64,000 bases of DNA from Leifsonia sp. 466MF (GTDB lineage Bacteria; Actinomycetota; Actinomycetes; Actinomycetales; Microbacteriaceae), in assembly GCF_900100265.1 (NCBI RefSeq), contig NZ_LT629696.1, positions 62,001 to 126,000 on the forward strand, given 5' to 3'. The notes beneath the pieces were generated by a model. It ran no database searches, was not told the DNA's origin, and saw only the letters and a program-made list of their open reading frames with translations. The translations under genes were made by a program, and so were the position numbers. Shown in pieces: positions 25,507 to 60,843 of this stretch (positions within the stretch are counted from its first letter, which is position 1; every line of letters begins with the position of its first letter).

Positions 25507-25547
25507 CCGGAGCCGGAGCGAGACGAGCGCCTTCGCTCGAGCTCCGG
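25507..25547. terminator. Hairpin after the DHFR-like gene
   Basis: CCGGAGC (25507-25513) pairs with GCTCCGG (25541-25547). After a 2x2 internal loop, GAGCG (25516-25520) pairs with CGCTC (25534-25538). It is 12 nt after the stop codon and GC-rich. It is a likely terminator, without a T-run. Confidence 0.5.
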
Positions 25548-25854
25548 CAGGTGCGTGCGTTGGGCGTCCTCTCGATGTCCGCTATTGCGGGTGTCGCAGA
25601 CGCTGCGAGCTCTGCCTTCTGCGCGCTGCCACGGCGCATCGATTCCCTGGTGAAGCCTGGTTTCGAAGCGATGAATGTGGCAGTCGCTCGCTGCTTCACG
25701 ACCTCGCGGTCGAAAGGATCACGTATGGCCGAGTTTCCTTCTTCGCGATCGACGCAGCCAGTGTGGAGCGAGGAATCGTTGACGCGACGCGCGGGCCTCC
25801 AGGGCTGCAGCGAACTCGCGATCGACGTCCTTTCAACGACGAGAGGAACGTGAG
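25548..25854. other. Intergenic stretch with unusual composition; no gene supported
   Basis: This 307-base stretch has visibly lower GC than its surroundings. The only plus-strand frame of note (25551-25853) has poor third-position G/C bias and resembles nothing, although its stop lies 1 nt before the next ATG. GAGAGGAA near the end is the ribosome-binding site of the following secreted-protein gene. I see no other signal. Confidence 0.5.
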
Positions 25855-26553
25855 ATGCGCTTTCGAGGATTGCGGTCTATGAGCCGGCGCGCAGCTTTTG
25901 CTGCAGCCGTAACTGTGATGGCGATGGGTTTCGTTGCTGCCGTAGCAGCTCCCGCCGATGCGTCTCCCAGCGCCGCGCGCGCAGTCGGATCCGATTCCGG
26001 CACGACAGTCCCCGTCATCCCCGACGCCGAGTCCGCGGCCTCACTACCGTCGGCGCAGCAGGCCGAGCTGGCTGCTCTGTCACCCAGCAGCGCAGCGATC
26101 GAAGAGGCCACGGCGAACGGAGAGTTCGATTACGCTCTCGCCGTGCGGAGCGGTGCCGACGAGACCGTGGCCCGGGAATGGGCGCAGGGCGTACAGCTCG
26201 CTGGAGGCGTAGTCCGGAATGCGCCGAATCCGACATCCCTGACACAAATGCCCATTCGGATCGCCGCCTTGGCTACCTGCCGCGGTCAGAACAGGATCTG
26301 GACCGACTATTTGGGCGGACATGCGCGTTTCAGCTCCTGCGTCGTCCCGAAAGCCGTCGCTGCCCTTCAAGCTGGTGTCGGCGCGACGGCATTGGCAGCG
26401 ACCATCGCCACGGCGGCCTCCATGGGCGTCGCAGCAGTGTCGGCCATTGTGCCTGCCCTCCTCCAATACAGCGTGTGGTCGATCGATGCCTGTAGCAAGA
26501 ACGGGACCGGCGTAGAACTGGCGTTCGCCGGATTCGTATGCTGGGCCCAGTAG
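25855..26553 (+). CDS. Secreted four-cysteine protein of unknown function
   Basis: The 232-residue product has a signal peptide (AAFAAAVTVMAMGFVAAVAAPADASP). A polar middle follows (about 45-125). The C-terminal module (about 137-232) has four cysteines (TCRGQ, SSCVV, DACSK, FVCWAQ) around a hydrophobic Ala/Gly-rich stretch, LAATIATAASMGVAAV. The layout (leader, spacer, compact Cys-bearing hydrophobic end) could suit a secreted toxin or bacteriocin-like effector, but I recognise no family. Codon use is less GC-biased than in neighbours, which hints at transfer. A tiny membrane protein follows directly. GAGAGGAA precedes the ATG. Confidence 0.62.
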   Translation: MRFRGLRSMSRRAAFAAAVTVMAMGFVAAVAAPADASPSAARAVGSDSGTTVPVIPDAESAASLPSAQQAELAALSPSSAAIEEATANGEFDYALAVRSGADETVAREWAQGVQLAGGVVRNAPNPTSLTQMPIRIAALATCRGQNRIWTDYLGGHARFSSCVVPKAVAALQAGVGATALAATIATAASMGVAAVSAIVPALLQYSVWSIDACSKNGTGVELAFAGFVCWAQ

Positions 26554-26567
26554 AGAGGGCGGTGACT

Positions 26568-26774
26568 GTGCCCATGATCGATCGGCTTACGCTGCTGCTG
26601 GTCGGGATCCTCACCGGGTCGGCGGCCACGCTCCTGGTGATCGGAATCTCGCAGATCGGAAGCGACCCCGACCTCACCGGACAACTCTCCAGCGCCGGGA
26701 CTGTTCTCGCGGCTTTCGCCCTGGCTGTCACCGTGGCGTGGGTCAGCTACAGAAGGCGGCATCAGTCCCGATGA
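26568..26774 (+). CDS. Small two-helix membrane protein
   Basis: The 68-residue protein has two membrane segments (LTLLLVGILTGSAATLLVIGI and a second ending in AFALAVTVAWVSYRRR) and a basic tail. The GTG at 26568 is chosen because GAGAGGG lies 8 nt upstream; the ribosome-binding site overlaps the stop of the upstream secreted-protein gene, so both are one operon. It could be an immunity-like or anchoring partner of that protein; this rests only on position and size. Confidence 0.55.
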   Translation: MPMIDRLTLLLVGILTGSAATLLVIGISQIGSDPDLTGQLSSAGTVLAAFALAVTVAWVSYRRRHQSR

Positions 26775-26805
26775 GCGCAGCGTCGGCGGCTCGGCGACGC
26801 CCCCG

Positions 26806-49152: not shown

Positions 49153-50223
49153 TCAGGCCTTCAGTTCCTGCGCGAGCGCGGCCACGAAGGCGTCGATGTC
49201 CTCTTCCGTGGTGTCGAATGCGCACATCCAGCGCACTTCGTTGTTGGCCGCATCCCAGTCGTAGAACCGGAAGTGCTGCCGCAGCCGGTCGGCGACGCCG
49301 CTCGGGAGGGTCGCGAAGACTCCGTTCGCCTGTGTCTTCTGGCTGAAGCCGACGCCCTGGATGCTGCCGTCGGCGATGCCCGCCTCCAGCGCCGTGCGCA
49401 GCCGGGTCGCCATCGCGTTGGCGTGCGAGGCGGAGCGCAGGTACAGGTCGTCGGTGAGCAGCGCGATGAGCTGTGCCGAGATGAACCGCATCTTCGACGC
49501 CAGCTGCATGTTCAGCTTGCGGAGGTAGATCATCCCCTCAGACGCCTGCGGGTTGAGCACGACGACGGCCTCGCCGTACAGCATGCCGTTCTTGGTCCCG
49601 CCGAAGCTGAGCACATCCACGCCGGCATCCGTCGTGAAGGCCCGCAGCGGAACGCCGAGGGTGGCCGCCGCGTTGGCGATGCGGGAGCCGTCCATGTGCA
49701 GCTTCATGCCGAGCGCGTGGACGTGGTCGGCGATCGCGCGGACCTCCTCCACCGTGTACGCGGTGCCCAGTTCGGTCGTCTGCGTGATCGACACGACCAG
49801 CGGCTGAGCGCGGTGCTCGTCGCCCCAGCCCCACGCCTCGCGGTCGATGAGCTCCGGCGTCAGCTTGCCGTCGGGCGTCTCGACCGGGAGCAGCTTGATG
49901 CCGGCCACCTTCTCGGGCGCACCGGCCTCGTCGGTGTTGATGTGCGCGGTCTTCGCGCACACGACCGCGCCCCAGCGCGGCAGCATCGACTGCAGGCCGA
50001 CCACGTTCGCCGCGGTCCCGTTGAACACCGGATACACCTCGACGCCCTCGCCGAAATGCTCGGCGAACACCTCGTGCAGGCGGGCCGTGTAGACGTCCTC
50101 GCCGTACGCGATCTGGTGGCCGTTGTTCGCGGCCGCGATGGCGTCGAGGATCTCGGGGTGCACACCCGCATAGTTGTCGGAGGCGAAGCCGCGGAGGGTG
50201 AGGTCGTGGAGTTGAAGCGTCAC
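49153..50223 (-). CDS. Threonine aldolase-family PLP enzyme
   Basis: The 356-residue beta-eliminating lyase-type protein shows FASDNYAGVHPEILDAIAAAN at the N-terminus, FNGTAANVVGLQSML, AHINTDEAGAPE, KLHMDGSRIANAA and the Schiff-base lysine in LSFGGTKNGMLYGEAVV. This matches low-specificity L-threonine aldolases, which split threonine into glycine and acetaldehyde. Its GTG overlaps the SDR stop (GTGA), so it is the third gene of the DUF6421 operon. With tdh-kbl at 10696 the cell has two routes from threonine to glycine. Confidence 0.9.
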   Translation of the reverse strand: MTLQLHDLTLRGFASDNYAGVHPEILDAIAAANNGHQIAYGEDVYTARLHEVFAEHFGEGVEVYPVFNGTAANVVGLQSMLPRWGAVVCAKTAHINTDEAGAPEKVAGIKLLPVETPDGKLTPELIDREAWGWGDEHRAQPLVVSITQTTELGTAYTVEEVRAIADHVHALGMKLHMDGSRIANAAATLGVPLRAFTTDAGVDVLSFGGTKNGMLYGEAVVVLNPQASEGMIYLRKLNMQLASKMRFISAQLIALLTDDLYLRSASHANAMATRLRTALEAGIADGSIQGVGFSQKTQANGVFATLPSGVADRLRQHFRFYDWDAANNEVRWMCAFDTTEEDIDAFVAALAQELKA

Positions 50224-50951
50224 TCGTCCATCTTCCCAGGCTCGAGGGGGATGCGTCGGCCGTTGACCGCCGCCGCATCCTGCTCCCACAGGCGCACGAC
50301 CTCGTCTCCGAGCTGCGGCTCGAGGCCCTCCAGGGTCTTCACGACGAAGACGGTCGCCGCCGACTGGGGCGCCTGCTTGGCGAAGCCTTGCGCGATGGCG
50401 CGCACCCAGGCGTCGGCTGCCGCCTTCGCTGCAGCGTAGTTCGCGCCGCCCGGGTACGGTTTCTCGACCGCGGTCGACGAGACGATCGCCAGCCGGCCGG
50501 CGGGTGAGGTGACGAGGTCGTCGAAGAAGATGCGGGTGGTGTTGCGGAGGGTGCGGAAGGCCCGCTCCAGGAACTCCCAGTCCTCGTCGCTCTGGCCCGC
50601 GATCCCGCCGCCGCCGCGCCAGCCGCCCACGAGGTGGATCAGGCCGTCGATGTGGCCGAACTTCAGGTGGATGCGCATGGCCAGCTCGGCCACTGCATCC
50701 CGGTCGGACAGATCGCAGGGACGCGTCTCGACGCCCGGGACCGCCGCGGCCAGCGCATCCAGCGCCTCCTGCCGGGTCCCGACCGCCAGGACGGTCGCGC
50801 CGGCCGCGACCAGCGCGCGGGCGACCGCTTCGCCCGACGCGCTGGTCGCGCCGGCGATCAGGACGAGCCGGCCGCGGACGGTGTCCGCGCCGAGCGGCCC
50901 GGCCTCCGAGGAGGGCCGGGCCGCCTGGTCCGCCGAGGGGGCGTCCGTCAT
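50220..50951 (-). CDS. Short-chain dehydrogenase/reductase
   Basis: The 243-residue SDR begins with about 25 disordered residues. The cofactor motif LVLIAGATSASGEAVARALV is at about 29-48 (family TGxxxGxG, here AGATSASG). VGGWRGGGGIAG, IVSSTAVEKP and the catalytic YAAAK follow. Its ATG overlaps the upstream DUF6421 stop (ATGA), and its own stop overlaps the threonine aldolase start. The substrate is unknown. Confidence 0.86.
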   Translation of the reverse strand: MTDAPSADQAARPSSEAGPLGADTVRGRLVLIAGATSASGEAVARALVAAGATVLAVGTRQEALDALAAAVPGVETRPCDLSDRDAVAELAMRIHLKFGHIDGLIHLVGGWRGGGGIAGQSDEDWEFLERAFRTLRNTTRIFFDDLVTSPAGRLAIVSSTAVEKPYPGGANYAAAKAAADAWVRAIAQGFAKQAPQSAATVFVVKTLEGLEPQLGDEVVRLWEQDAAAVNGRRIPLEPGKMDE

Positions 50952-52393
50952 GCCGCGTCCGTCGTCCCGGTGATGCCGGCCGTCGACTCGATGACGGTCG
51001 CCATCTTCTTGTTCAGCGCCTCGTAGAACATCGAGAGCGGGAACTCGTCGTCCAGCACCTGGTCGGTGTAGCCCTTCGGCGGTCCGGCCAGGACCTCGTC
51101 CGACAGCCCGCGCGCCCAGTTGGAGGCGGGGTGCGGGGTGAGGGTCTCGGTGAGCATCTCGTAGGCCGCCAGCCAGTGCGCCACCTTCGGCCGGTCGATC
51201 GAACGCCAGTACAGGTCGTTGATCCGGTCGCTGAGGGCGATGACCACGTCGGAGACGTTCTCCCAGTCGATGGTGAGCTGGGTGTCCGTCCAGTGCAGCA
51301 CGTCGTGCTGGTGCATCCACGCGAACAGCAGCTGGCCGCCGAGTCCGTCGTAGTTGCGCACGCGGCTGCCGGTGATCGCGAACCGGAAGATGCGGTCGAA
51401 GATCACCGCGTACTGCACCAGGTGCGCGTGGTCGCGGATGGCGCGCTGCGCCTCCGAGAGCTCGGCGTCGGGCAGGGCGCTGAGCTCGCGCTCCAGCTTC
51501 ACCGACTCGCGGAAGGCGGTCAGGTCGCACCGCAGCTCCTCCAGCGAGTAGAGGAAGAACGGCATCCGCTGCTTGATCATGAACGGGTCGAACGGCAGGT
51601 CGCCGCGCATGTGGCTGCGGTCGTGGATGATGTCCCACATCACGAAGGTCTCCTCCGTGAGGTGCTGGTCGTCCAGCATCGCAGCCGCGTCGTCCGGCAG
51701 CTCCAGCTTGGTGATCTCGGCGGCGGCGCGCACCACCCGGCGGTACCGGGCGGCCTCGCGGTCCTGGAAGATGGCACCCCAGGTGAACGCGGGGATCTCG
51801 CGCATGGCCACGGTCTCGGGGAACAGCACCGCCGAGTTGGTGTCGTAACCGGGCGTGAAGTCCACGAACCGCAGGGCGACGAACAGCTTGTTGCCGTAGT
51901 CGCCGGCCTCCAGCTCCGCCACGAACTCCGGCCAGATCACCTCGACCAGCAGGGCCTCGACGTGACGGTCGGGGCTGCCGTTCTGCGTGTACATGGGGAA
52001 CACGACCAGGTGGCCGAGCCCATCCACGCGGTGCTGCTGCGGCTGGAACTCGTTCAGCGCGTCGAGGAAGTCGGGAACGCCGAAGCCCTCGTCCGCCCAG
52101 CGCGTGAAGTCGCGCTGCAGCGCGGCCAGGTAGGACGCGTCGTGCGGGAACGCCGGTGCGAGTGCGGCGATCGAGTCGACGATGGTGCGGACGTGCTCTG
52201 CGGCGGCCGGGCGGTCGGACTCCTGCTCGACCGAGCCGTCCTTCACCTGGAGGGCCTGCAGCGCGACGGCGGCGTCCTTGAGGCGCAGCCAGGCGGGGTC
52301 GTTCGCGACCTCGCGGACCGGGCGGCCGTCCTCGACGACCTCGGGCTCCCCGACAATGGCGTCTGCGGTGAAGTGCTGGACGAATTGAGACAT
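50948..52393 (-). CDS. DUF6421 family protein
   Basis: The 481-residue soluble protein is recognised as the actinobacterial DUF6421 family. Conserved-looking parts include LVVFPMYTQNGSPDRHVEAL, MWDIIHDRSHMRGDLPFDPFM with a striking HDRSH motif that could bind a metal, and LFAWMHQHDVLHWTDTQLTIDW. No known catalytic domain is assigned. GGGAGG precedes the ATG, and TAGGCT upstream may be the -10. It leads a tightly coupled three-gene operon with an SDR and a threonine aldolase, suggesting a shared metabolic path on an amino or carbonyl compound. Confidence 0.88.
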   Translation of the reverse strand: MSQFVQHFTADAIVGEPEVVEDGRPVREVANDPAWLRLKDAAVALQALQVKDGSVEQESDRPAAAEHVRTIVDSIAALAPAFPHDASYLAALQRDFTRWADEGFGVPDFLDALNEFQPQQHRVDGLGHLVVFPMYTQNGSPDRHVEALLVEVIWPEFVAELEAGDYGNKLFVALRFVDFTPGYDTNSAVLFPETVAMREIPAFTWGAIFQDREAARYRRVVRAAAEITKLELPDDAAAMLDDQHLTEETFVMWDIIHDRSHMRGDLPFDPFMIKQRMPFFLYSLEELRCDLTAFRESVKLERELSALPDAELSEAQRAIRDHAHLVQYAVIFDRIFRFAITGSRVRNYDGLGGQLLFAWMHQHDVLHWTDTQLTIDWENVSDVVIALSDRINDLYWRSIDRPKVAHWLAAYEMLTETLTPHPASNWARGLSDEVLAGPPKGYTDQVLDDEFPLSMFYEALNKKMATVIESTAGITGTTDAA

Positions 52394-52557
52394 GACGAAC
52401 CTCCCGTCGTTGGTCGGCCGCTCGCACGCGGCAGGGTGTGGATGTGACGAGCCTATCCGGGGATCGCGAGCGTTTTGTTGTCTCTTCCGGCGGAAAACTG
52501 CGCCGTCCCGCTGCGATGCGCAACAAACCCTTCCGTCACCCCGGCTAGCGTGACGCC

Positions 52558-53019
52558 ATGGAAATCGAGGTGTCAGCGGCGCGCGCGGAGGACGTGCCCG
52601 CAGTGGAACAACTGGTCCGCGAGGCGTACGAGCCGTACGTCGAGCGCATCGGCCGGAAGCCGGGGCCGCTTCTGGATGACTACGCCACGATCGTCGGACA
52701 GGGCCGAGCGCTCGTCGCTCGGGACCGAGGGCGGATCGTCGGGCTGCTCATCACCTCCGTTCGCCCGGACCATCTGCTCGTGGAGAACGTCGCCGTAGCC
52801 GACAGCGTCCGCGGCACGGGTCTAGGTGCGCGGCTGCTCGGGATCGCCGAGAAGCAGGCCCGCGCCGAGGGGCTCGACGAGATCCGCCTCTACACGCACG
52901 AGTTGATGACCGAGAACGTGGCCTACTACCCTCGCCACGGCTTCGTCGAGACGCACCGCCGGACCGACAACGGCTTCCCGCGCGTCTTCTTCTCCCGCCG
53001 ACTCCCCCCGCGCCCCTGA
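52558..53019 (+). CDS. GNAT-family N-acetyltransferase
   Basis: The 153-residue protein is a compact GNAT: VSAARAEDVPAVEQLVREAYEPYVERIG, then LLVENVAVADSVRGTGLGARLLGIAEKQA with the acetyl-CoA loop, and IRLYTHELMTENVAYYPRHGF. It resembles GNATs that act on small molecules. The ATG is leaderless, with TAGCGT exactly 6 nt upstream, and is divergent from the DUF6421 operon. Confidence 0.9.
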   Translation: MEIEVSAARAEDVPAVEQLVREAYEPYVERIGRKPGPLLDDYATIVGQGRALVARDRGRIVGLLITSVRPDHLLVENVAVADSVRGTGLGARLLGIAEKQARAEGLDEIRLYTHELMTENVAYYPRHGFVETHRRTDNGFPRVFFSRRLPPRP

Positions 53020-53038
53020 CCCCCCTCGCTCCTGCCCT

Positions 53039-53126
53039 CACCGTCGAGTCCGCCCCCACCATCGAGTCCGCACAAATTGCACACGAAACGCCGCACGGGC
53101 GTGCAAAGTTTGCGGACTCGACGGTG
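53039..53126. repeat. Compound inverted and direct repeat (element G)
   Basis: Two direct copies of CACCRTCGAGTCCGC (53039-53053 and 53058-53072) both match the inverse of 53112-53126; the first is perfect over 15 nt. The second extends to a 26-nt arm (53058-53083 with 53101-53126) with few mismatches. It separates the GNAT gene from the SDR gene. Confidence 0.72.
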
Positions 53127-53175
53127 GGCGGAGGCCGGAGGCGACGGGAGGGACCGACGCTGCGATGATGGGGGG

Positions 53176-54072
53176 ATGGCGAGAACGGTTCGCGGGGCGC
53201 GTGTACTCATCACCGGCGCGGCCTCGGGCATGGGGCGTCTGTACGCCGAACGCGCCGTGCTCGAAGGCGCGCGAGCGGTCGTGCTCTGGGACCGGGACGA
53301 GGCCGCGCTCACCGAACTGACGCACCGGTTGCGGCGCGAAGTGCTCGCCGGACGCACCGCCGCTGCCTGGGGAGCGCCGCCACGGTCACCGAGCTCGGCG
53401 GCCGGGAAGGCATCCACCAGTGTGCTGCCCTACGTCGTCGACCTAGCGGAGCTCGGCGCGATCGCGCAGAGTGCGCAGGCGGTGCGCAAGGAGCTCGGCG
53501 GGATCGACGTGCTCATCAACAACGCGGGCATCGTGCGGGGGAAGTACTTCTGGGAGCACGACAACGGCGACGACACCCGCCCGACCATGCAGGTCAACGC
53601 TCTCGCCCCGATGTACGTGACGCGGGAGTTTCTGCCCGGGATGCAGCAGAGCCCCCGCGAGGCCCGCATCGTCAACATCGCCTCGGCTGCCGGGACGATC
53701 TCCAACCCGCGCATGAGTGTCTACGCCGCAAGCAAGTGGGCGGTGATCGGCTGGAGCGACAGCGTCCGCCTCGAACTGCAGCAGCAGGGCTACGGCCACG
53801 TGAAGGTCACGACGGTCGCGCCGAGCTACATCGACACGGGGATGTTCGAGGGCGCCCGCGGGCCGCTCCTGACCCCGGTGATGAGCCCCGAGTACGTGGT
53901 CGACCGGGTCTGGCGGGCGATGCTCGCGGGCCGTCCGATGCTGATGCTCCCCTGGACGGTCGGGCTGGCCCGGACCCTCCGCGGCGTGCTCCCTACCCGT
54001 GCGTGGGACGCCGTCGCCGGCCGCGTCTTCGGCGTCTACGACTCGATGGAGGGGTTCACGGGCCGCCAATAG
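53176..54072 (+). CDS. Short-chain dehydrogenase/reductase
   Basis: The 298-residue classical SDR shows VLITGAASGMGRLYAERAV, VLINNAGIVRGKYF, catalytic Ser in IVNIASAAGTIS, and YAASKWAVIGWSDSVRLEL. A poorly ordered insert at about 60-82 (GAPPRSPSSAAGKAS) is unusual. The C-terminus has PWTVGLARTLRGVLPTRAWD, a membrane-associating pattern seen in lipid-acting SDRs. GGGGGG precedes the ATG. The last codons and stop lie inside the first copy of the 27-bp repeat. Confidence 0.88.
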   Translation: MARTVRGARVLITGAASGMGRLYAERAVLEGARAVVLWDRDEAALTELTHRLRREVLAGRTAAAWGAPPRSPSSAAGKASTSVLPYVVDLAELGAIAQSAQAVRKELGGIDVLINNAGIVRGKYFWEHDNGDDTRPTMQVNALAPMYVTREFLPGMQQSPREARIVNIASAAGTISNPRMSVYAASKWAVIGWSDSVRLELQQQGYGHVKVTTVAPSYIDTGMFEGARGPLLTPVMSPEYVVDRVWRAMLAGRPMLMLPWTVGLARTLRGVLPTRAWDAVAGRVFGVYDSMEGFTGRQ

Positions 54073-54085
54073 CCCGCGTCGGTAC
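54059..54085 (+). repeat. 27-bp direct repeat, left copy
   Basis: The sequence starts CGGGCCGCCAATAGCCCG and continues to 54085. It is identical base for base to 55605-55631. This copy contains the last codons and stop of the SDR gene. The two copies flank the MFS gene, 1546 bp apart, as left by insertion or integration. Confidence 0.92.
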
Positions 54086-54285
54086 GGTCCGTTCACATCC
54101 GTGTGACTGGCGTGATGGTGGCCGCAATCGGCGCAGCGTGAATCTGCCCGTTGGAGCCGAGAGTCCCCGGAATCGGCCGCAGCTCGCATCGATCTTCGGG
54201 GTCGGTCGACTTGTCCCCGGACGGGCCGCTGGCTAGTTTTCGAGCGCGCGCATCGCGCGCTTTCGCATGGGAGGGGCAACAGGTT
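54086..54285. other. Leader region of the MFS gene
   Basis: The 200 bases between the left repeat and the GTG at 54286 contain no supported gene. Composition is more mixed than in flanking genes. A GAGCGCGCG/CGCGCGCTTT self-complementary stretch lies at about 54243-54263. GGGAGGGG at 54269 is the ribosome-binding site. An in-frame upstream extension (from 54151) is not needed. Confidence 0.45.
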
Positions 54286-55563
54286 GTGACCGACGTAACC
54301 CCGGTTCCTCCGGGGCTATGGAACCGTGATTTCAAGCGCCTCTGGTGGAGCGAAGCGATCTCGTTTTTTGGAAGCCAGCTCACGCTGTTCGCGATTCCGA
54401 TCGTCGCGCTCGAGTACCTGCATGCGTCCGCCTCCGAGGTCGCATGGATCACCACCGCGGCGGGCATCGGGACGCTCGTGTTTCTCGGATTTCTAGCACC
54501 CTGGACCGACAGGGGTCGAAGGACGCGGTTCCTGTTCCTGATGTCCGTGCTCCGGGCCGCCGTGCTGGGAGTCATCGGGCTCCTGTTCTTTGCTGACCAC
54601 CTTTCGCTTCTCGTGCTCGCCCTCGCGGCCGGCCTGATCTCCGGTCTCACAGGTTTGTATGACAGCGCATTCTCGGCTCTTGTGCCGGGCATCGTGCACC
54701 GGTCCAGGTTGCCGGCGGCGAATACCTGGGTCGCGGGCATCCGCTCCGCCGGAGACATCGGCGCAGGCGCGACCGCCGGCATTCTCCTGCAGATATTCTC
54801 GCCACTGGCGTTGTTCCTGGCGGACGCTGTCACGTACGTCATCTCCGCTTTCTCGGTGCGTCGCGTTAGCGAGGCGGAGCCGGAGCCGGAGGAACGCCTC
54901 ACGGTGAGGCGCTATGCATCGTCCATCGTCGCTGGGTTTCGGATGCTCTATCGGAGCACGGTGCTCTGGCCGCTGACCCTGGCCATCGCGCACTTCAATC
55001 TCTTCACCGCAGCGATTCAGGCGATCTACATCACTCATGCACTTCGGTCGGGATCGATGAGCCCGGCGGAAGTCGGAGTTGCAGGCGCTCTGGGCGGGGT
55101 GCTCGGGCTCCTTTCGATGGCGGCCGCTCCGCGTATCTGGGATCGCCTGCGACCGATCACTGCGCTGGCCCTGACCTTCGCTCTTCCCGCTGTGGCGGGT
55201 ATCGGGATGCTCGCGCTCGTTCCAGGTCGCACCGTCCTCAACGTGGCCCTTCTTGCGCTCTCGCTGGGTCTGTGGGCAGCGAGCGTCATGACGAACGTGA
55301 CCGGCACGGAGACACTGAAACAGGTACTGGTGCCGGAGCGTGCGTTGGGCTCTTATTCCGCGGCCAGCCGCATCGTCACCTGGGGGATCGACCCGCTGGG
55401 GGCCGCTCTTGCGGCGGTCCTGACCCTGGTGTTTCCGACCGGCGTTGTCCTCGCTCTGGCCAGTCTGGGGATCCTCACCTCCGCAGCATGGGTGCTCGCC
55501 TCACGAGCCGTTCGCCGTTTGCCTCGCCTGGCCAGCATTTCGGCGTCTGACGCGGCAGGGTGA
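54286..55563 (+). CDS. MFS exporter (EntS/MFS_3-like)
   Basis: The 425-residue protein has about twelve membrane segments. LWNRDFKRLWWSEAISFFGSQ at the start is typical of MFS_3-type drug or siderophore exporters. APWTDRGRRTRFLFLMSVLRAAVLG is the loop 2-3 motif, and a central charged loop contains EAEPEPEERLTVRRYASSI. The GTG has GGGAGGGG 9 nt upstream. Codon use is less GC-biased than in neighbours (more TTT, TCT, TTG). It lies between exact 27-bp repeats, so the cassette was probably acquired. It may export a drug or siderophore. Confidence 0.88.
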   Translation: MTDVTPVPPGLWNRDFKRLWWSEAISFFGSQLTLFAIPIVALEYLHASASEVAWITTAAGIGTLVFLGFLAPWTDRGRRTRFLFLMSVLRAAVLGVIGLLFFADHLSLLVLALAAGLISGLTGLYDSAFSALVPGIVHRSRLPAANTWVAGIRSAGDIGAGATAGILLQIFSPLALFLADAVTYVISAFSVRRVSEAEPEPEERLTVRRYASSIVAGFRMLYRSTVLWPLTLAIAHFNLFTAAIQAIYITHALRSGSMSPAEVGVAGALGGVLGLLSMAAAPRIWDRLRPITALALTFALPAVAGIGMLALVPGRTVLNVALLALSLGLWAASVMTNVTGTETLKQVLVPERALGSYSAASRIVTWGIDPLGAALAAVLTLVFPTGVVLALASLGILTSAAWVLASRAVRRLPRLASISASDAAG

Positions 55564-55604
55564 CCGGCGTGAGGGCCGCGATAAGGCTTTGCACTTCGGG
55601 GCAT

Positions 55605-55631
55605 CGGGCCGCCAATAGCCCGCGTCGGTAC
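55605..55631 (+). repeat. 27-bp direct repeat, right copy
   Basis: It is identical to 54059-54085 and carries a useless copy of the SDR gene's last codons and TAG. The sequence just right of it (promoter of the APC permease) is presumably what followed the SDR gene before insertion. Confidence 0.92.
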
Positions 55632-55640
55632 TCCCATTTC

Positions 55641-55654
55641 TGTGAGAACTCACA
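55641..55654. promoter_or_regulatory. Palindrome in the APC permease promoter
   Basis: TGTGAG-AA-CTCACA is a perfect dyad. A -10-like TACAGT follows directly at 55655-55660, so a bound protein would block transcription of the permease at 55694. The regulator is unknown. Confidence 0.55.
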
Positions 55655-55693
55655 TACAGTGGCTCCCCGAGCGAACGTCGAAGGGAGCCGACC

Positions 55694-57121
55694 GTGAGCG
55701 ATCCGTCGTGGACCCAGGTGGTCAAGACCGTCGAGCCGGAACAGCCGGAGCTGAAACGAGCCCTCGGGCCGGGTCTGCTGCTGCTGTTCATCGTCGGCGA
55801 CATTCTCGGCACGGGCGTGTACGCCCTGACCGGTCAGGTCGCCGCGGAGGTGGGAGGCGCGGCGTGGCTGCCGTTCCTGCTGGCGTTCGCCGTGGCGACC
55901 GTGACCGCCTTCTCCTACCTGGAGCTGGTCACCAAGTATCCGCAAGCCGCGGGCGCCGCTCTGTATACGCATAAAGCGTTCGGCATCCACTTCTTCACGT
56001 TCATCGTGTGCTTCATCGTCATGACGTCCGGCATCACGTCGGCATCGACGGCGTCGCGCGCATTCGCGGTGAACCTCACCGTCGGCTTCGGCATCCCGGA
56101 TGACAACGTGACGACCCTGCTCATCGCCCTCGCCTTCATCGTGCTCATCATGCTGGTGAACCTTCGCGGCGTCTCCGAGAGCGTGTGGCTCAACGTCGTG
56201 CTCACCCTCGTGGAGCTCTCCGGTCTGCTGCTGGTGATCTTCATCGGGCTCTGGGCGATCGGCGGCGGCAACGCGGACTGGTCGCAGGTGGTGGCGTTCG
56301 AGACGCCGGAGGACAAGGGCGTTCTGCTGGCCGTGAGCACGGCGACCTCGCTGGCGTTCTTCGCCATGGTCGGCTTCGAGGATTCGGTCAACATGGCCGA
56401 GGAGACGAAGGAACCGAGCCGGATCTTCCCGAAGATGATGTTGAGCGGGCTCGGCATCGCGGCGGTCATCTACGTGCTGGTGTCGATCACCGTCGTCGCG
56501 CTGGTCCCGATCGGCCAGCTGGCCGGGAGCGAGACGCCGCTGGTGCTGGCCGTCGAGGCGGCGGCGCCGGGCTTCCCGATCAACGACCTGCTGCCGTTCA
56601 TCTCGATGTTCGCCGTGGCAAACACCGCTCTCATCAACATGATGATGGCGAGCCGCCTGCTCTACGGCATGAGCCGCCAGAACGTGCTTCCGCCGTTCTT
56701 GGCGAAGGTGTCGCCGAAGCGCCGGACGCCGTGGACGGCCATCCTGTTCACCACGGCGCTCGCCGTCGCCCTGATCATCTACGTGTCGCTCGACCCGAAG
56801 GGCTCGATCGTCGCGCTGCTCGGAGGCACGACATCCCTGCTTCTGCTGGCGGTGTTCGCGGTCGTCAACGTGGCCGTGCTGGTGCTGCGCAAGCAGCCGG
56901 TGGACCACAAGCACTTCCGGTCGCCGACCGTGCTGCCGATCATCGGCGCGATCACCTGCCTGTATCTGGTGTTCCCATGGACCTCCGGCCGCCCGGTCGG
57001 CCAGTACACGATCGCGCTCGGGCTCCTCGGCATCGGCATCCTGCTGTGGATCGTCGAGCGGATCTACTCCGCGGTCGCCCGCCGGCGCTCGACACAAGAG
57101 AAGGTCGACTCGGCCCGCTGA
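55694..57121 (+). CDS. APC-family amino acid permease
   Basis: The 475-residue protein has about twelve membrane segments. LKRALGPGLLLLFIVGDILGTGVYALTG matches the cationic/basic amino acid permease group. The central motif is FFAMVGFEDSVNMAEETKEPSRIFP, and YGMSRQNVLPPFL lies in the second half. AAGGGAG precedes the GTG. It is the third APC permease in the window and has its own operator-like palindrome. Confidence 0.91.
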   Translation: MSDPSWTQVVKTVEPEQPELKRALGPGLLLLFIVGDILGTGVYALTGQVAAEVGGAAWLPFLLAFAVATVTAFSYLELVTKYPQAAGAALYTHKAFGIHFFTFIVCFIVMTSGITSASTASRAFAVNLTVGFGIPDDNVTTLLIALAFIVLIMLVNLRGVSESVWLNVVLTLVELSGLLLVIFIGLWAIGGGNADWSQVVAFETPEDKGVLLAVSTATSLAFFAMVGFEDSVNMAEETKEPSRIFPKMMLSGLGIAAVIYVLVSITVVALVPIGQLAGSETPLVLAVEAAAPGFPINDLLPFISMFAVANTALINMMMASRLLYGMSRQNVLPPFLAKVSPKRRTPWTAILFTTALAVALIIYVSLDPKGSIVALLGGTTSLLLLAVFAVVNVAVLVLRKQPVDHKHFRSPTVLPIIGAITCLYLVFPWTSGRPVGQYTIALGLLGIGILLWIVERIYSAVARRRSTQEKVDSAR

Positions 57122-57130
57122 CCCGCGTGC

Positions 57131-57160
57131 GACGCCTGATCGCCTGCGCGGTCAGGCGTC
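57131..57160. terminator. Hairpin between convergent genes
   Basis: GACGCCTGA (57131-57139) pairs with TCAGGCGTC (57152-57160), loop 12 nt. It overlaps the stop codon of the minus-strand gene and can end both transcripts. Confidence 0.6.
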
Positions 57161-57403
57161 GCCGGCGCGGTGACCCGGGTCGCCGCGCTCGACGATCGCG
57201 GCGGGGTCGAGGTCGTCCTCCGGCGGCACGGGGATGTCTCCCACGTCGTCGGGGCCGCCGGTGCCCGGGCGCACGGCGGCGCCGTCCGACTCCTCCTGCT
57301 TGACCTCCGTCTCGCGCTCGCTCGCTGGGCTGTACGAGCGGTCCTTCGCGGTCTGGTCGGCGTCGCTCTGGTGCTCGTCGGGGGCATCCGGTGTCGCGTT
57401 CAT
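57152..57403 (-). CDS. Small acidic protein, unknown function
   Basis: The 83-residue product is hydrophilic and acidic (DAPDEHQSDADQTAKDRSYS, then DDVGDIPVPPEDDLDPA) with no membrane segment, and is probably disordered. Similar small acidic proteins accompany stress genes in Microbacteriaceae, but I recognise no family. The ATG has TACCGT 7 nt upstream, so it is probably leaderless. It is divergent from the stress-type SDR. Confidence 0.6.
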   Translation of the reverse strand: MNATPDAPDEHQSDADQTAKDRSYSPASERETEVKQEESDGAAVRPGTGGPDDVGDIPVPPEDDLDPAAIVERGDPGHRAGDA

Positions 57404-57498
57404 TGGAGGGACGGTACGCGCACATCCCGAGCCGCCCAAGCCCCTGACGTGGTGCGGAAGCGGGTGTTCCGTGGAGGTACACGAATGGAGGTCGATGG

Positions 57499-58338
57499 AT
57501 GTCTTTCCCTGAACAGCAGCAGCAGCCGCCCGGTACCACCGACGCGATGGACCCGCGCCCTGACCACGGCGAGCAGAGCTACCGCGGCAGCGGCAAACTG
57601 ACCGGCAAGGTCGCGCTCATCACCGGCGCGGACAGCGGCATCGGCAAGGCGGTCGCCATCGCCTACGCCCGCGAGGGAGCCGATGTCGCCATCTCGTACC
57701 TGAGCGAGGACGACGACGCCGAGGACACCGCGAAGTGGGTGCGCGAGGCCGGACGGAAGGCCCTGCTGCTGCCCGGCGACGTCTCCGACCCGCAGCACTG
57801 CCGGGACATCGTCGCGAAGACCGTGGAGGAGCTCGGCGGCATCGACGTTCTCGTCAGCAACGCGGCGTACCAGATGACGCACGAGTCGCTGGAGGAGATC
57901 CCGGACGAGGAGTGGGATCACACCATCGCGACGAACGTCTCCGCCTTCTTCCACCTGGCGAAGGCATCCGTGCCGCACATGAAGCCGGGCGCGAGCATCA
58001 TCGGCTCGTCGTCGGTGAACTCCGACATGCCCTCTCCGACACTGCTTCCGTACGCGGCGACGAAGGCGGCCATCGCCAACATGACGGCATCGCTCGCGCA
58101 GCTGCTCGGTGAGAAGGGCATCCGGGCCAACAGCGTCGCGCCGGGTCCCATCTGGACGCCGCTCATCCCCTCCACCATGCCGGTGGAGAAGGTGAGCCAG
58201 TTCGGGAGCGACACCCCGTTCGGGCGGGCGGGCCAGCCGGCCGAGCTGGCGTCGGTCTACGTGCTGCTGGCGTCCGACGAGGGCTCGTACATCTCGGGCG
58301 CGCGGATCGCCGTCACCGGCGGGCGTCCCATCCTGTAG
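57499..58338 (+). CDS. SDR oxidoreductase, general-stress type (YdaD/GSP39-like)
   Basis: The 279-residue SDR has a Gln/Pro-rich N-terminal extension (MSFPEQQQQPPGTTDAMDPR and more), characteristic of stress SDRs such as B. subtilis GSP39. The core shows ALITGADSGIGKAVAIAYAREGADVA, VLVSNAAYQMTHESL, SIIGSSSVNS and YAATKAA. AVTGGRPIL ends the protein. GGAGG precedes the ATG. A perfect 17-bp terminator follows. Confidence 0.9.
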   Translation: MSFPEQQQQPPGTTDAMDPRPDHGEQSYRGSGKLTGKVALITGADSGIGKAVAIAYAREGADVAISYLSEDDDAEDTAKWVREAGRKALLLPGDVSDPQHCRDIVAKTVEELGGIDVLVSNAAYQMTHESLEEIPDEEWDHTIATNVSAFFHLAKASVPHMKPGASIIGSSSVNSDMPSPTLLPYAATKAAIANMTASLAQLLGEKGIRANSVAPGPIWTPLIPSTMPVEKVSQFGSDTPFGRAGQPAELASVYVLLASDEGSYISGARIAVTGGRPIL

Positions 58339-58350
58339 TCGGCGGATACG

Positions 58351-58389
58351 GAGAACGGCGCCGGTGCAGATCGCACCGGCGCCGTTCTC
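58351..58389. terminator. Bidirectional terminator, 17-bp perfect stem
   Basis: GAGAACGGCGCCGGTGC (58351-58367) pairs exactly with 58373-58389; the loop is 5 nt. It lies between the convergent SDR and SRPBCC genes. Confidence 0.88.
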
Positions 58390-58415
58390 GTCGCTCCAGG
58401 GGAGGAGCGGACGGA

Positions 58416-58883
58416 TCAGACCGTGTCGCCGCGGTCCACCTCGCCGCGCCAGGCACCCGTCTCGGTGCCCTGCGACTCGATGAACTTCTTGAAGTTCTCC
58501 AGGTCCTTCTTCACGGCGTGGTCGTCGAGGCCGAACACGGACCCGATCTTCTCGAGCGCGTCGGACGGCGCCCACTCCAGCTGCACCGTCACCTTGGTCT
58601 CGGTGTCGGAGAGCCGGTGGAAAGTCACGACGCCCGCGTGCTCCGTGTCACCGGCGACGGACTTCCACGCCACCCGCTCGTCCGGAAGCTGCTCGGTGAT
58701 GACCGTGTCGAACTGCCGCTCCGCGCCGCCGATCTTCACGCGCCAGTGGTTGGTGGTGTCGTCGACCTGGCGGATCTCCTCGACCTCGTCGAGGAAGTGC
58801 GGGAAGGACTCGAACTGGGTCCACTGGTTGTACGCCGTCGAGACCGGCACGTTGACGTCGATGGACTTGGTCACTGCAGCCAT
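58416..58883 (-). CDS. SRPBCC-family (START/polyketide cyclase-like) protein
   Basis: The 155-residue protein is a single helix-grip domain: TKSIDVNVPVSTAYNQWTQFESFPHFLDEVEEI, then HWRVKIGGAERQFDTVITEQLPDERVAWKS, and a final helix LEKIGSVFGLDDHAVKKDLENFKKFIE. This matches cyclase/dehydrase-type SRPBCC proteins that bind hydrophobic ligands. AAAGGAG precedes the ATG at 58883. The function is unknown; its position next to the stress SDR suggests a stress role. Confidence 0.85.
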   Translation of the reverse strand: MAAVTKSIDVNVPVSTAYNQWTQFESFPHFLDEVEEIRQVDDTTNHWRVKIGGAERQFDTVITEQLPDERVAWKSVAGDTEHAGVVTFHRLSDTETKVTVQLEWAPSDALEKIGSVFGLDDHAVKKDLENFKKFIESQGTETGAWRGEVDRGDTV

Positions 58884-58984
58884 TACGGCTCCTTTCGCTG
58901 TCATCTGGGTTCCGGGACGACGGTAGGCCCGGCAGCGAATGGGTATAGACCCTGGACTTCACAGGTGGATCGTGCGACGAGCGC

Positions 58985-59797
58985 TCAGCCCCAGCGGCGG
59001 GCCGTCCACCGTTCGAACAGACCGAGCAGCGAGTCGGTGATGATGCCCAGGATCGCCAGCAGGATGATCGCCAGGAAGAGGCGGTCGGTCCGGCCGTTGT
59101 TCTGCGAGTCGATGAGCAGGAAGCCGAGTCCCATCGACGACGCGATCAGCTCGGCGGCGACGAGGAACAACCACGCCTGCGCCATGGCGAGTCGGAGACC
59201 GGAGATCACCGACGGCAGCACGGCGGGGAGTTGGACGGTCGTCAAGAGCCGGACGCCGTTCAGCCCGAACGCGCGTCCCGCCTCCACCAGCTGACGGTCG
59301 ACGTGCTTGAGCGCAGCGCCGACCGTCGTGTAGACGGGGAAGAACGCGCCGATCGCGATCAGGATGATCTTCGAGTCCTCGCCGATCTTGAACCACAGGA
59401 TCAGCAGGGGCACCCAGGCGAGCGACGGAACCGCCCGGATGGCGGCGAGCGTCGGGCTGAACAGCACATCCGACCAGCGCGACAGACCCACCAGAGCCCC
59501 GAGCAGGAGGCCGAGGCCCGCGCCGAAAGCGAAGCCGATGAGCACCCGCTGGGTCGAGATCGCCACGAACTGCCCCAGCAATCCACGCTGGGCGAGGTCG
59601 ACCGCGGCCTCCCACACCATCGCCGGCGACGGCAGCTGCGACGACGTGAACGCACCGGAGGTCGACGCCACCTGCCACACGGCGAGCAGCACGACGGGGA
59701 TGACGAACCCCGCGGCGATCCTCACCCCGCGGCGCGACAGCACGGACGTGCGTGCGGCCGCCGTCGTGACGACCTCCGGTGCGCTCTGGACGGTCAT
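58985..59797 (-). CDS. ABC transporter permease, SsuC/TauC type
   Basis: The 270-residue permease has six membrane segments: RIAAGFVIPVVLLAVWQVAST first, AGLGLLLGALVGLSRWSDVL, and the EAA-like loop LVEAGRAFGLNGVRLLTTVQLPAVLPSVISGLR. It is the last gene of the ATPase-binding protein-permease operon, 8 bp after the binding protein. Likely imports aliphatic sulfonates or similar anions; no sulfonate monooxygenase is adjacent. Confidence 0.91.
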   Translation of the reverse strand: MTVQSAPEVVTTAAARTSVLSRRGVRIAAGFVIPVVLLAVWQVASTSGAFTSSQLPSPAMVWEAAVDLAQRGLLGQFVAISTQRVLIGFAFGAGLGLLLGALVGLSRWSDVLFSPTLAAIRAVPSLAWVPLLILWFKIGEDSKIILIAIGAFFPVYTTVGAALKHVDRQLVEAGRAFGLNGVRLLTTVQLPAVLPSVISGLRLAMAQAWLFLVAAELIASSMGLGFLLIDSQNNGRTDRLFLAIILLAILGIITDSLLGLFERWTARRWG

Positions 59798-59805
59798 GGG
59801 ATGCG

Positions 59806-60843
59806 TCAGCCTCCGATGGCGCTCGGGTCGGCCTTCTTCGCGAAGGTCGGGTCGAGCAGCGAGTCGAGCGCCTTGTCGATGTCGGTCTGGGACTTCACGT
59901 CGCCGGACTCGACGAAGATCGGGCCGACCTTCTTCAGCACGGCCAGCTGCGCCTTGCCGGGGATGTTCGACACGTCGAGGTTGGTGCGCTCGGTGATCAC
60001 CGTGGTGGCGACGGCGGGATCGATGCCGGCGACGTCGGACAGGATCTTGGCCGTCTCGTCCGGGTGCTTCTCGGCCCAGGCCCGGGCGTACTCGTAGGTG
60101 TTCACGACGGTCTGCGCGACATCCGGCTTCGAGTCGAGGAACGACTCCGTGGCGTTGAGGAAGCCGTAGGTGTTGAACTTCACGTTGCGGTAGATGAGCT
60201 TCGCGCCCGACTTCTCGGCGTTGGCCATGATCGGGTCGAGGCCGCTCCATGCGTCGACCGAGCCGTTCTGCAGGGCCGCCCAGCCGTCGGCGTGCTGGAG
60301 GTTCTGGATGGTGACATCCTTGGCCGAGAGACCGTTCGCCTCGAGCGCCTGCAGCAGGAAGAAGTACGGGTCGGTGCCCTTCGTGGCCGCGACCTGCTTG
60401 CCCTTGAGGTCCTTCACCGACGTGATGGTCGAGTTCGGGCCGACGACGATGGCCGACCACTCGGGCTGCGAGAAGATGTCGATGGTCTTGATCTGCGATC
60501 CGTTCGAGCGGGCCAGCAGCGCGGCCGAGCCCGCGGTCGAGCCGACGTCGATCGCGCCCGAGCGGAGCGCCTCGTTCGCCTTGTTGGAGCCGGCGGACTG
60601 CACCCAGTTGACCGTGATGTCCTGCTTCTTCAGGGCCTTCTCCAGCCAGCCCTCCTTCTTGATGACGAGGCTGAGCGGGTTGTAGGTCGCGAAGTCGATG
60701 TTGAGCGTTCCGCCCTTCGTCACTCCGGCGGAGTTGGTGGCGCCGGAGGCGGAGCCCTCGCCGGCGACGCAGCCGGTCAGCAGCAGGCTGGCGGCCGCGA
60801 CGATACCGGCGGCGGCGGTCAGGATGGTGGGTCTGCGGCGCAT
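59806..60843 (-). CDS. ABC transporter substrate-binding lipoprotein, SsuA type
   Basis: The 345-residue protein has a lipoprotein signal (AAAGIVAAASLLLTGC). The NMT1/SsuA-type domain shows LNIDFATYNPLSLVIKKEGWLEKALKK, VNWVQSAGSNKANEALRSGAIDVGSTAGSAAL and KQVAATKGTDPYFFLLQAL. Family members bind sulfonates, taurine or thiamine precursors. GAGAGAGG precedes the ATG. A purine/GTG-rich spacer of 73 bp separates it from the ATPase gene. Confidence 0.92.
   Translation of the reverse strand: MRRRPTILTAAAGIVAAASLLLTGCVAGEGSASGATNSAGVTKGGTLNIDFATYNPLSLVIKKEGWLEKALKKQDITVNWVQSAGSNKANEALRSGAIDVGSTAGSAALLARSNGSQIKTIDIFSQPEWSAIVVGPNSTITSVKDLKGKQVAATKGTDPYFFLLQALEANGLSAKDVTIQNLQHADGWAALQNGSVDAWSGLDPIMANAEKSGAKLIYRNVKFNTYGFLNATESFLDSKPDVAQTVVNTYEYARAWAEKHPDETAKILSDVAGIDPAVATTVITERTNLDVSNIPGKAQLAVLKKVGPIFVESGDVKSQTDIDKALDSLLDPTFAKKADPSAIGG

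Follow-up and report, generated by a model that had tools for sequence, protein, structure and literature searches.

How did a single MFS exporter gene come to stand between an SDR-family oxidoreductase gene and an amino-acid permease gene in Leifsonia sp. 466MF, and why is it framed by two identical stretches of DNA? The window, that is, the whole 64,000-nucleotide stretch analysed, contains the same 27 bases twice in direct orientation, at a spacing of 1546 bp (Table 1). The left copy covers the last codons of the SDR gene with its TAG stop (54070–54072), and the right copy is situated outside both the MFS and the permease genes, before the upstream region of the latter. Both features had been described in an earlier sequence-only reading and were confirmed in the sequence. 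The same reading had noted one MFS gene and no recombinase between the repeats, and this also held: there is a single open MFS gene, and neither a recombinase nor a transposase was found by open-frame and Pfam analysis of this gene and its two neighbours, the scan of the insert for element genes covering its long (MFS) frame. In the complete genome of 4.14 Mb, the 27-mer occurs exactly twice with up to three mismatches allowed, both times at this locus. Upstream of the SDR gene (window 53024–53141), an inverted repeat with 30-nt arms, 80% complementary, was observed; the gap before the gene in which it lies differs in the relative G013.

Table 1. Features of the SDR–MFS–permease locus (window positions)
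Feature	Position	Strand	Basis
SDR-family oxidoreductase gene	53176..54072	+	Pfam adh_short; open frame, GC3 0.90
Left copy of the 27-bp target duplication	54059..54085	+	Exact repeat; single 26/27 copy in G013
Inserted DNA, 1519 bp	54086..55604	+	Not found at the site in 27 other genus genomes; gap-free empty-site alignment
MFS exporter gene, GTG start, 425 aa	54286..55563	+	Pfam MFS_1 and MFS_3
Right copy of the 27-bp target duplication	55605..55631	+	Exact repeat
Amino-acid permease gene, right neighbour	55694..57121	+	Pfam AA_permease_2

The empty site and the genus comparison

Direct repeats of such length at gene-scale distance are not rare in this genome. In 1.246 Mb of it, exact pairs spaced 300–5000 bp apart number 35 at a length of at least 20 bp and 19 at a length of at least 24 bp; the real test of an insertion is therefore provided by the relatives. 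The 27-bp repeat stands out because a relative has the empty site with a single copy. In genome G013, which is about 94% identical to that of strain 466MF (designated G000 hereafter), the matches to the SDR and permease genes overlap by 25 bases and meet over one repeat copy, identical to the window copy in 26 of 27 positions. After removal of the insert and one copy from the window sequence, 232 of 234 bases could be aligned with G013 at 95.7% identity with no gap. The sequence-only reading had proposed entry at the 3′ end of the SDR gene with duplication of the site and had predicted one 27-bp copy in a relative lacking the MFS gene; the G013 junction agrees with both. The two observations that it had named as contrary to its proposal did not appear. 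No other genus genome, of 27 compared, was found to have the MFS gene at the SDR–permease site, and the 27-mer is not a common intergenic repeat, being present (up to three mismatches) in two of the 398 genomes of the family, namely G000 and, with one mismatch, the empty site of G013.

An SDR match was obtained in 26 of the 27 other genus genomes, G018 being without any match. The SDR and permease matches are at most 175 bp apart in 11 relatives, while ten have no permease match inside the 1.5 kb examined beside the SDR gene. In five others (G001, G002, G011, G016 and G021), the two matches are separated by 1015–5614 bp. Both window copies of the repeat share one base at which G013, G014 and G025 differ, as would be expected if one site was copied. 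An insertion accompanied by a 27-bp target duplication is shown by the comparison of these sequences. The SDR–permease junction is a variable spot, with other DNA in these five relatives (L204–L208). In the junctions of G002 and G016, the arginase family was matched in the two frames tested; an Ig-like surface protein was recognised by eye in that of G001.

The reverse history, in which an ancestral MFS gene was lost elsewhere through recombination between the two repeats, is extremely unlikely. Direct repeats readily delete, but the absence of the gene in 27 relatives would take many losses. In addition, the SDR and permease genes of G014 and G025 are adjacent with different sequence after the stop codon, and the codon use of the MFS gene is atypical, as described below.

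Long end repeats among indels and signals of mobile elements

The frequency of such events was assessed by comparison of 1.246 Mb of G000 with 1.305 Mb of G013, which yielded an aligned chain of 947 kb with 93.6% identity. The clean indels that are 100 bp or longer number 64 (G000, 35; G013, 29), and a further 25 are complex. An end-repeat score of 20 or higher was reached by 4 of the 64 clean indels, and the remaining 60 score 11 or less; for 400 random pairs (from the first 846 kb of G000 and the first 905 kb of G013), the end-repeat score did not exceed 13. Three clean indels have long end repeats that are not REP-like: the MFS insert (27/27), a second insert in G000 (27/28) and one in G013 (20/20). 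The fourth long-repeat case, a 56-bp stretch in G013, was considered as a target duplication and rejected; it is a REP-like array repeat and was not counted. Among the complex indels, one carries a 30-bp repeat formed by the end of a tRNA-Ser gene, one further locus scores 24 and 18 and appears REP-like by eye, and the others score 12 or less. A segment of 1.29 kb in the window (25511–26801), which includes a secreted-protein-like frame (by eye), is missing from G013 and has no end repeats.

The second G000 insert is located at about G000:C1 37385–38666 (L101 17385–18666), and G013 has one copy of its end repeat. One of its frames matches Excalibur and PASTA, and the other is lipoprotein-like with no Pfam family. 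Among the matches listed, no third genome has the two flanks next to each other. The ends of the two G000 inserts were compared by eye. In the 20-bp case of G013, a small gene, with no Pfam match for its approximate frame, follows a gene end; in G019 and G027, a similar gene comes directly after that host gene. Among the three long-repeat cases, the direction of change, a gain, is clear from the sequence comparison for the MFS insert alone.

The G013 case could be an example of another process. Homology-facilitated illegitimate recombination can bring in DNA when one joint is formed by homology and the other illegitimately. For the MFS insert, the donor would be a relative with the gene already past the SDR end, and the right joint would be illegitimate. 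The variable gap in the five relatives named above would fit such transfers. On the other side, the MFS gene was not found beside the SDR gene in any of the 27 other genus genomes, and the base shared by the two copies differs from that of G013, G014 and G025. Homology-driven transfer is decidedly improbable as the origin of this insert.

Att-like repeats around small inserts occur in G000 too, where 1.85 kb are enclosed by a 30-bp repeat taken from the 3′ end of a tRNA-Ser gene (L109 13433–15343; G000:C1 about 4034780–4036690). Three frames scanned inside this segment matched no Pfam or PHROG family. In G013, a 29-kb segment beside a tRNA-Gly gene (G013:C1:508637–537654) is missing from G000. 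Both tRNA cases are assumed to be integrase-type islands. The repeat at the SDR gene is similar to that of the tRNA-Ser case in length (30 bp in the latter) and in its position at a gene 3′ end, whereas neither a tRNA nor an integrase was found at the SDR gene.

An analogous site-specific integration would require a small element with a 27-bp attP matching the SDR 3′ end and a tyrosine or serine recombinase, either acting in trans or deleted since. The location at the 3′ end of a gene that is left whole resembles that of att sites, the genome has four tyrosine-integrase matches and the 27-mer contains a CGGGC-8-GCCCG inverted pair (5-bp self-match). In G013, however, one base interrupts this pair, and such pairs are estimated to be fairly frequent in GC-rich DNA. 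The att-like site or mobile cassette envisaged by the sequence-only reading found no support in the sequences compared: the 27-mer is limited to G000 and the G013 empty site and adjoins no other cargo in the 398 family genomes, the insert has no inverted ends beyond chance, no tRNA was found at 50000–60000, the MFS gene and its two neighbours encode no recognisable recombinase and the nearest tyrosine-integrase match lies at a distance of about 330 kb. An att-type event with a recombinase lost or acting in trans is possible, and we rate site-specific integration as rather unlikely.

Insertion sequences usually produce target duplications shorter than 27 bp, and a few, such as IS1549, make long ones. 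A non-autonomous element could have been moved in trans by a transposase of the latter type, and the 27/28 repeat of the second insert would suit a fixed stagger. The ends of the MFS insert do not favour this. Their terminal inverted-repeat score of 9.3 is inside the shuffled range, being equalled by 14% of 300 shuffles. A direct motif of 13 bp, GTGACYGGCGTGA, near both insert ends gives a stronger signal, its score being reached by 2 of 300 shuffles. These two are the sole exact copies within the window, but once up to two mismatches are allowed there are 9 window matches vs. 7.8 expected. Transposition in trans is very improbable on this evidence. The insert showed neither mark of an IS element or transposon in its own right: no transposase gene was found in the frames scanned, and there are no inverted ends beyond chance. 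Searches of 52500–57500 for Rfam families and of 53000–56000 for a consensus promoter gave no match.

The MFS gene, its codon use and its relatives

The predicted protein matches Pfam MFS_1 with an E-value of 1.4e-25 (90.4 bits, cut-off 33.4), and MFS_3 was also matched. The PHROG match of the long gene of the insert is a family of unknown function, and no solved structure matched the protein at E 0.001. Directly before the start codon (window 54230–54285), the sequence folded into a GC-rich hairpin, a possible leader structure.

Codon use was compared with that of 695 approximate genes, selected for an open frame and for base periodicity. The GC3 of the MFS gene, 0.763 compared with a mean of 0.859, is in the 15th percentile of this set. 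For codon adaptation the gene falls in the 7th percentile, and among 47 genes of similar hydrophobicity it ranks at the bottom (1 of 47 as low). The codon use is thus moderately atypical, not extreme, and the less GC-biased usage noted in the sequence-only reading stands to that moderate degree.

Relatives of the protein are scarce. At E 1e-40, matches were found in 3 of the 28 genus genomes, including that of strain 466MF; the other two, G017 and G023, have the gene far from the SDR gene, and the G023 protein is 63% identical in the genus search. Across the 398 genomes of the family, the threshold of E ≤ 1e-60 was reached in three: G000, G017 (62%) and G152 (70%). A protein with 98% identity (P0001) is encoded on a metagenome contig of 1817 bp. 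The scan of genome contigs gave one close relative (L039, Diaminobutyricibacter tongyongensis) and one distant match (21%). Plasmid matches to the protein are at most 33% identical among the best 15 of 77, and the best 5 of 86 matches in a plasmid DNA search with 53900–55900 all fall on the permease part. On viral contigs, the MFS gene was not found.

Two of the relatives have a distinct gene context. In L039 (2629–7278), four genes encode a ThiF protein, a solute-binding-like protein, a JmjC-type protein and, last, the MFS relative. The gene order in G023 (L042 2429–7007) is the same, the second gene being without a Pfam match. The L039 ThiF protein matched G023 (50%) and, weakly, G009 (35%), and at E 1e-15 it had no match in G000, so no ThiF partner of the MFS gene was found there. 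The four-gene ThiF/JmjC/MFS operon may, by analogy, be a peptide-antibiotic cluster. The MFS gene of strain 466MF is probably an orphan export or self-protection (immunity) gene of the kind found in such ThiF-type operons, to judge from these relatives. ThiF-type RiPP clusters, such as that of pantocin A, as described in the available passages of PMC12250964, offer a parallel in that the two MFS relatives end operons with ThiF and JmjC-type genes. The exporter of strain 466MF, in contrast, is solitary, and the pantocin transporter PaaC, which confers resistance when expressed in E. coli, belongs to the EamA family, not to MFS (same passages of PMC12250964).

Probable repair of a staggered break and comparison with known systems

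We consider it probable that a foreign fragment of about 1.5 kb, bearing a single MFS exporter gene, was taken up into the SDR–permease gap with duplication of the target, break repair by Ku/LigD being the most likely route. The incoming DNA would have been a linear piece. A chromosomal break with a long stagger may have arisen between the two genes and been filled in, and the filled-in ends would then have been joined to the incoming DNA by Ku/LigD end joining. Fill-in of a staggered break followed by end joining would give a long duplication without a transposase, terminal repeats or an att site. Ku was found in all 28 genus genomes, and G000 has three LigD-polymerase matches, one of them close beside Ku; since both proteins are encoded, such repair is available to the host. 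The presence of Ku and LigD is compatible with the repair step, not proof of it. Against end joining stands the fact that no donor locus was found, so that the formation of the junctions is inferred. The att-like repeat at the tRNA-Ser gene and the 13-bp direct motif near both insert ends also count against it.

The near-equal length of the 27- and 28-bp repeats is not predicted by break repair, which leaves room for a dedicated enzyme. Gene capture in Leifsonia might be a recurring process with a near-fixed stagger of 27–28 bp and no recombinase or terminal signals, carried out by a dedicated nuclease together with Ku/LigD or by a recombinase acting wholly in trans, and the two G000 inserts would be its first traces. 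We regard this as distinctly unlikely.

The locus provides a clean natural record of how a chromosome can acquire and keep a single foreign gene, no mobile-element machinery having been found. The empty site in G013 and a second, similar insert in G000 make it testable, in a lineage that bears Ku and LigD, whether long target duplications arise by end-joining repair.

The locus combines an empty site with one repeat copy, a 27-bp repeat longer than the usual duplications of IS elements and a long gene that is neither an IS gene nor an integrase gene. The MFS insert belongs to the class of insertion with long target duplication; such events have been described before, and the cargo and the host differ here. 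The class was named for Helicobacter pylori by Nobusato et al. 2000 (cited in PMC1643837 and PMC3154945), and an association with restriction-modification genes is frequent and not defining, according to the available text of PMC1643837. The H. pylori cases, as far as they are described in the passages of PMC1643837 and PMC3154945, are likewise polymorphic gene insertions whose target shows a long direct repeat. Their cargo is restriction-modification genes, whereas that of the present insert is an MFS exporter in an actinobacterial host, detected by comparison between species. Transposed genes of Arabidopsis, in the available part of PMC2869330, are also non-transposon genes flanked by direct repeats, often with the repeat present at the orthologous empty site; that host, however, is a plant, repeats longer than 30 bp are stressed and a circle-and-recombination model is proposed there.
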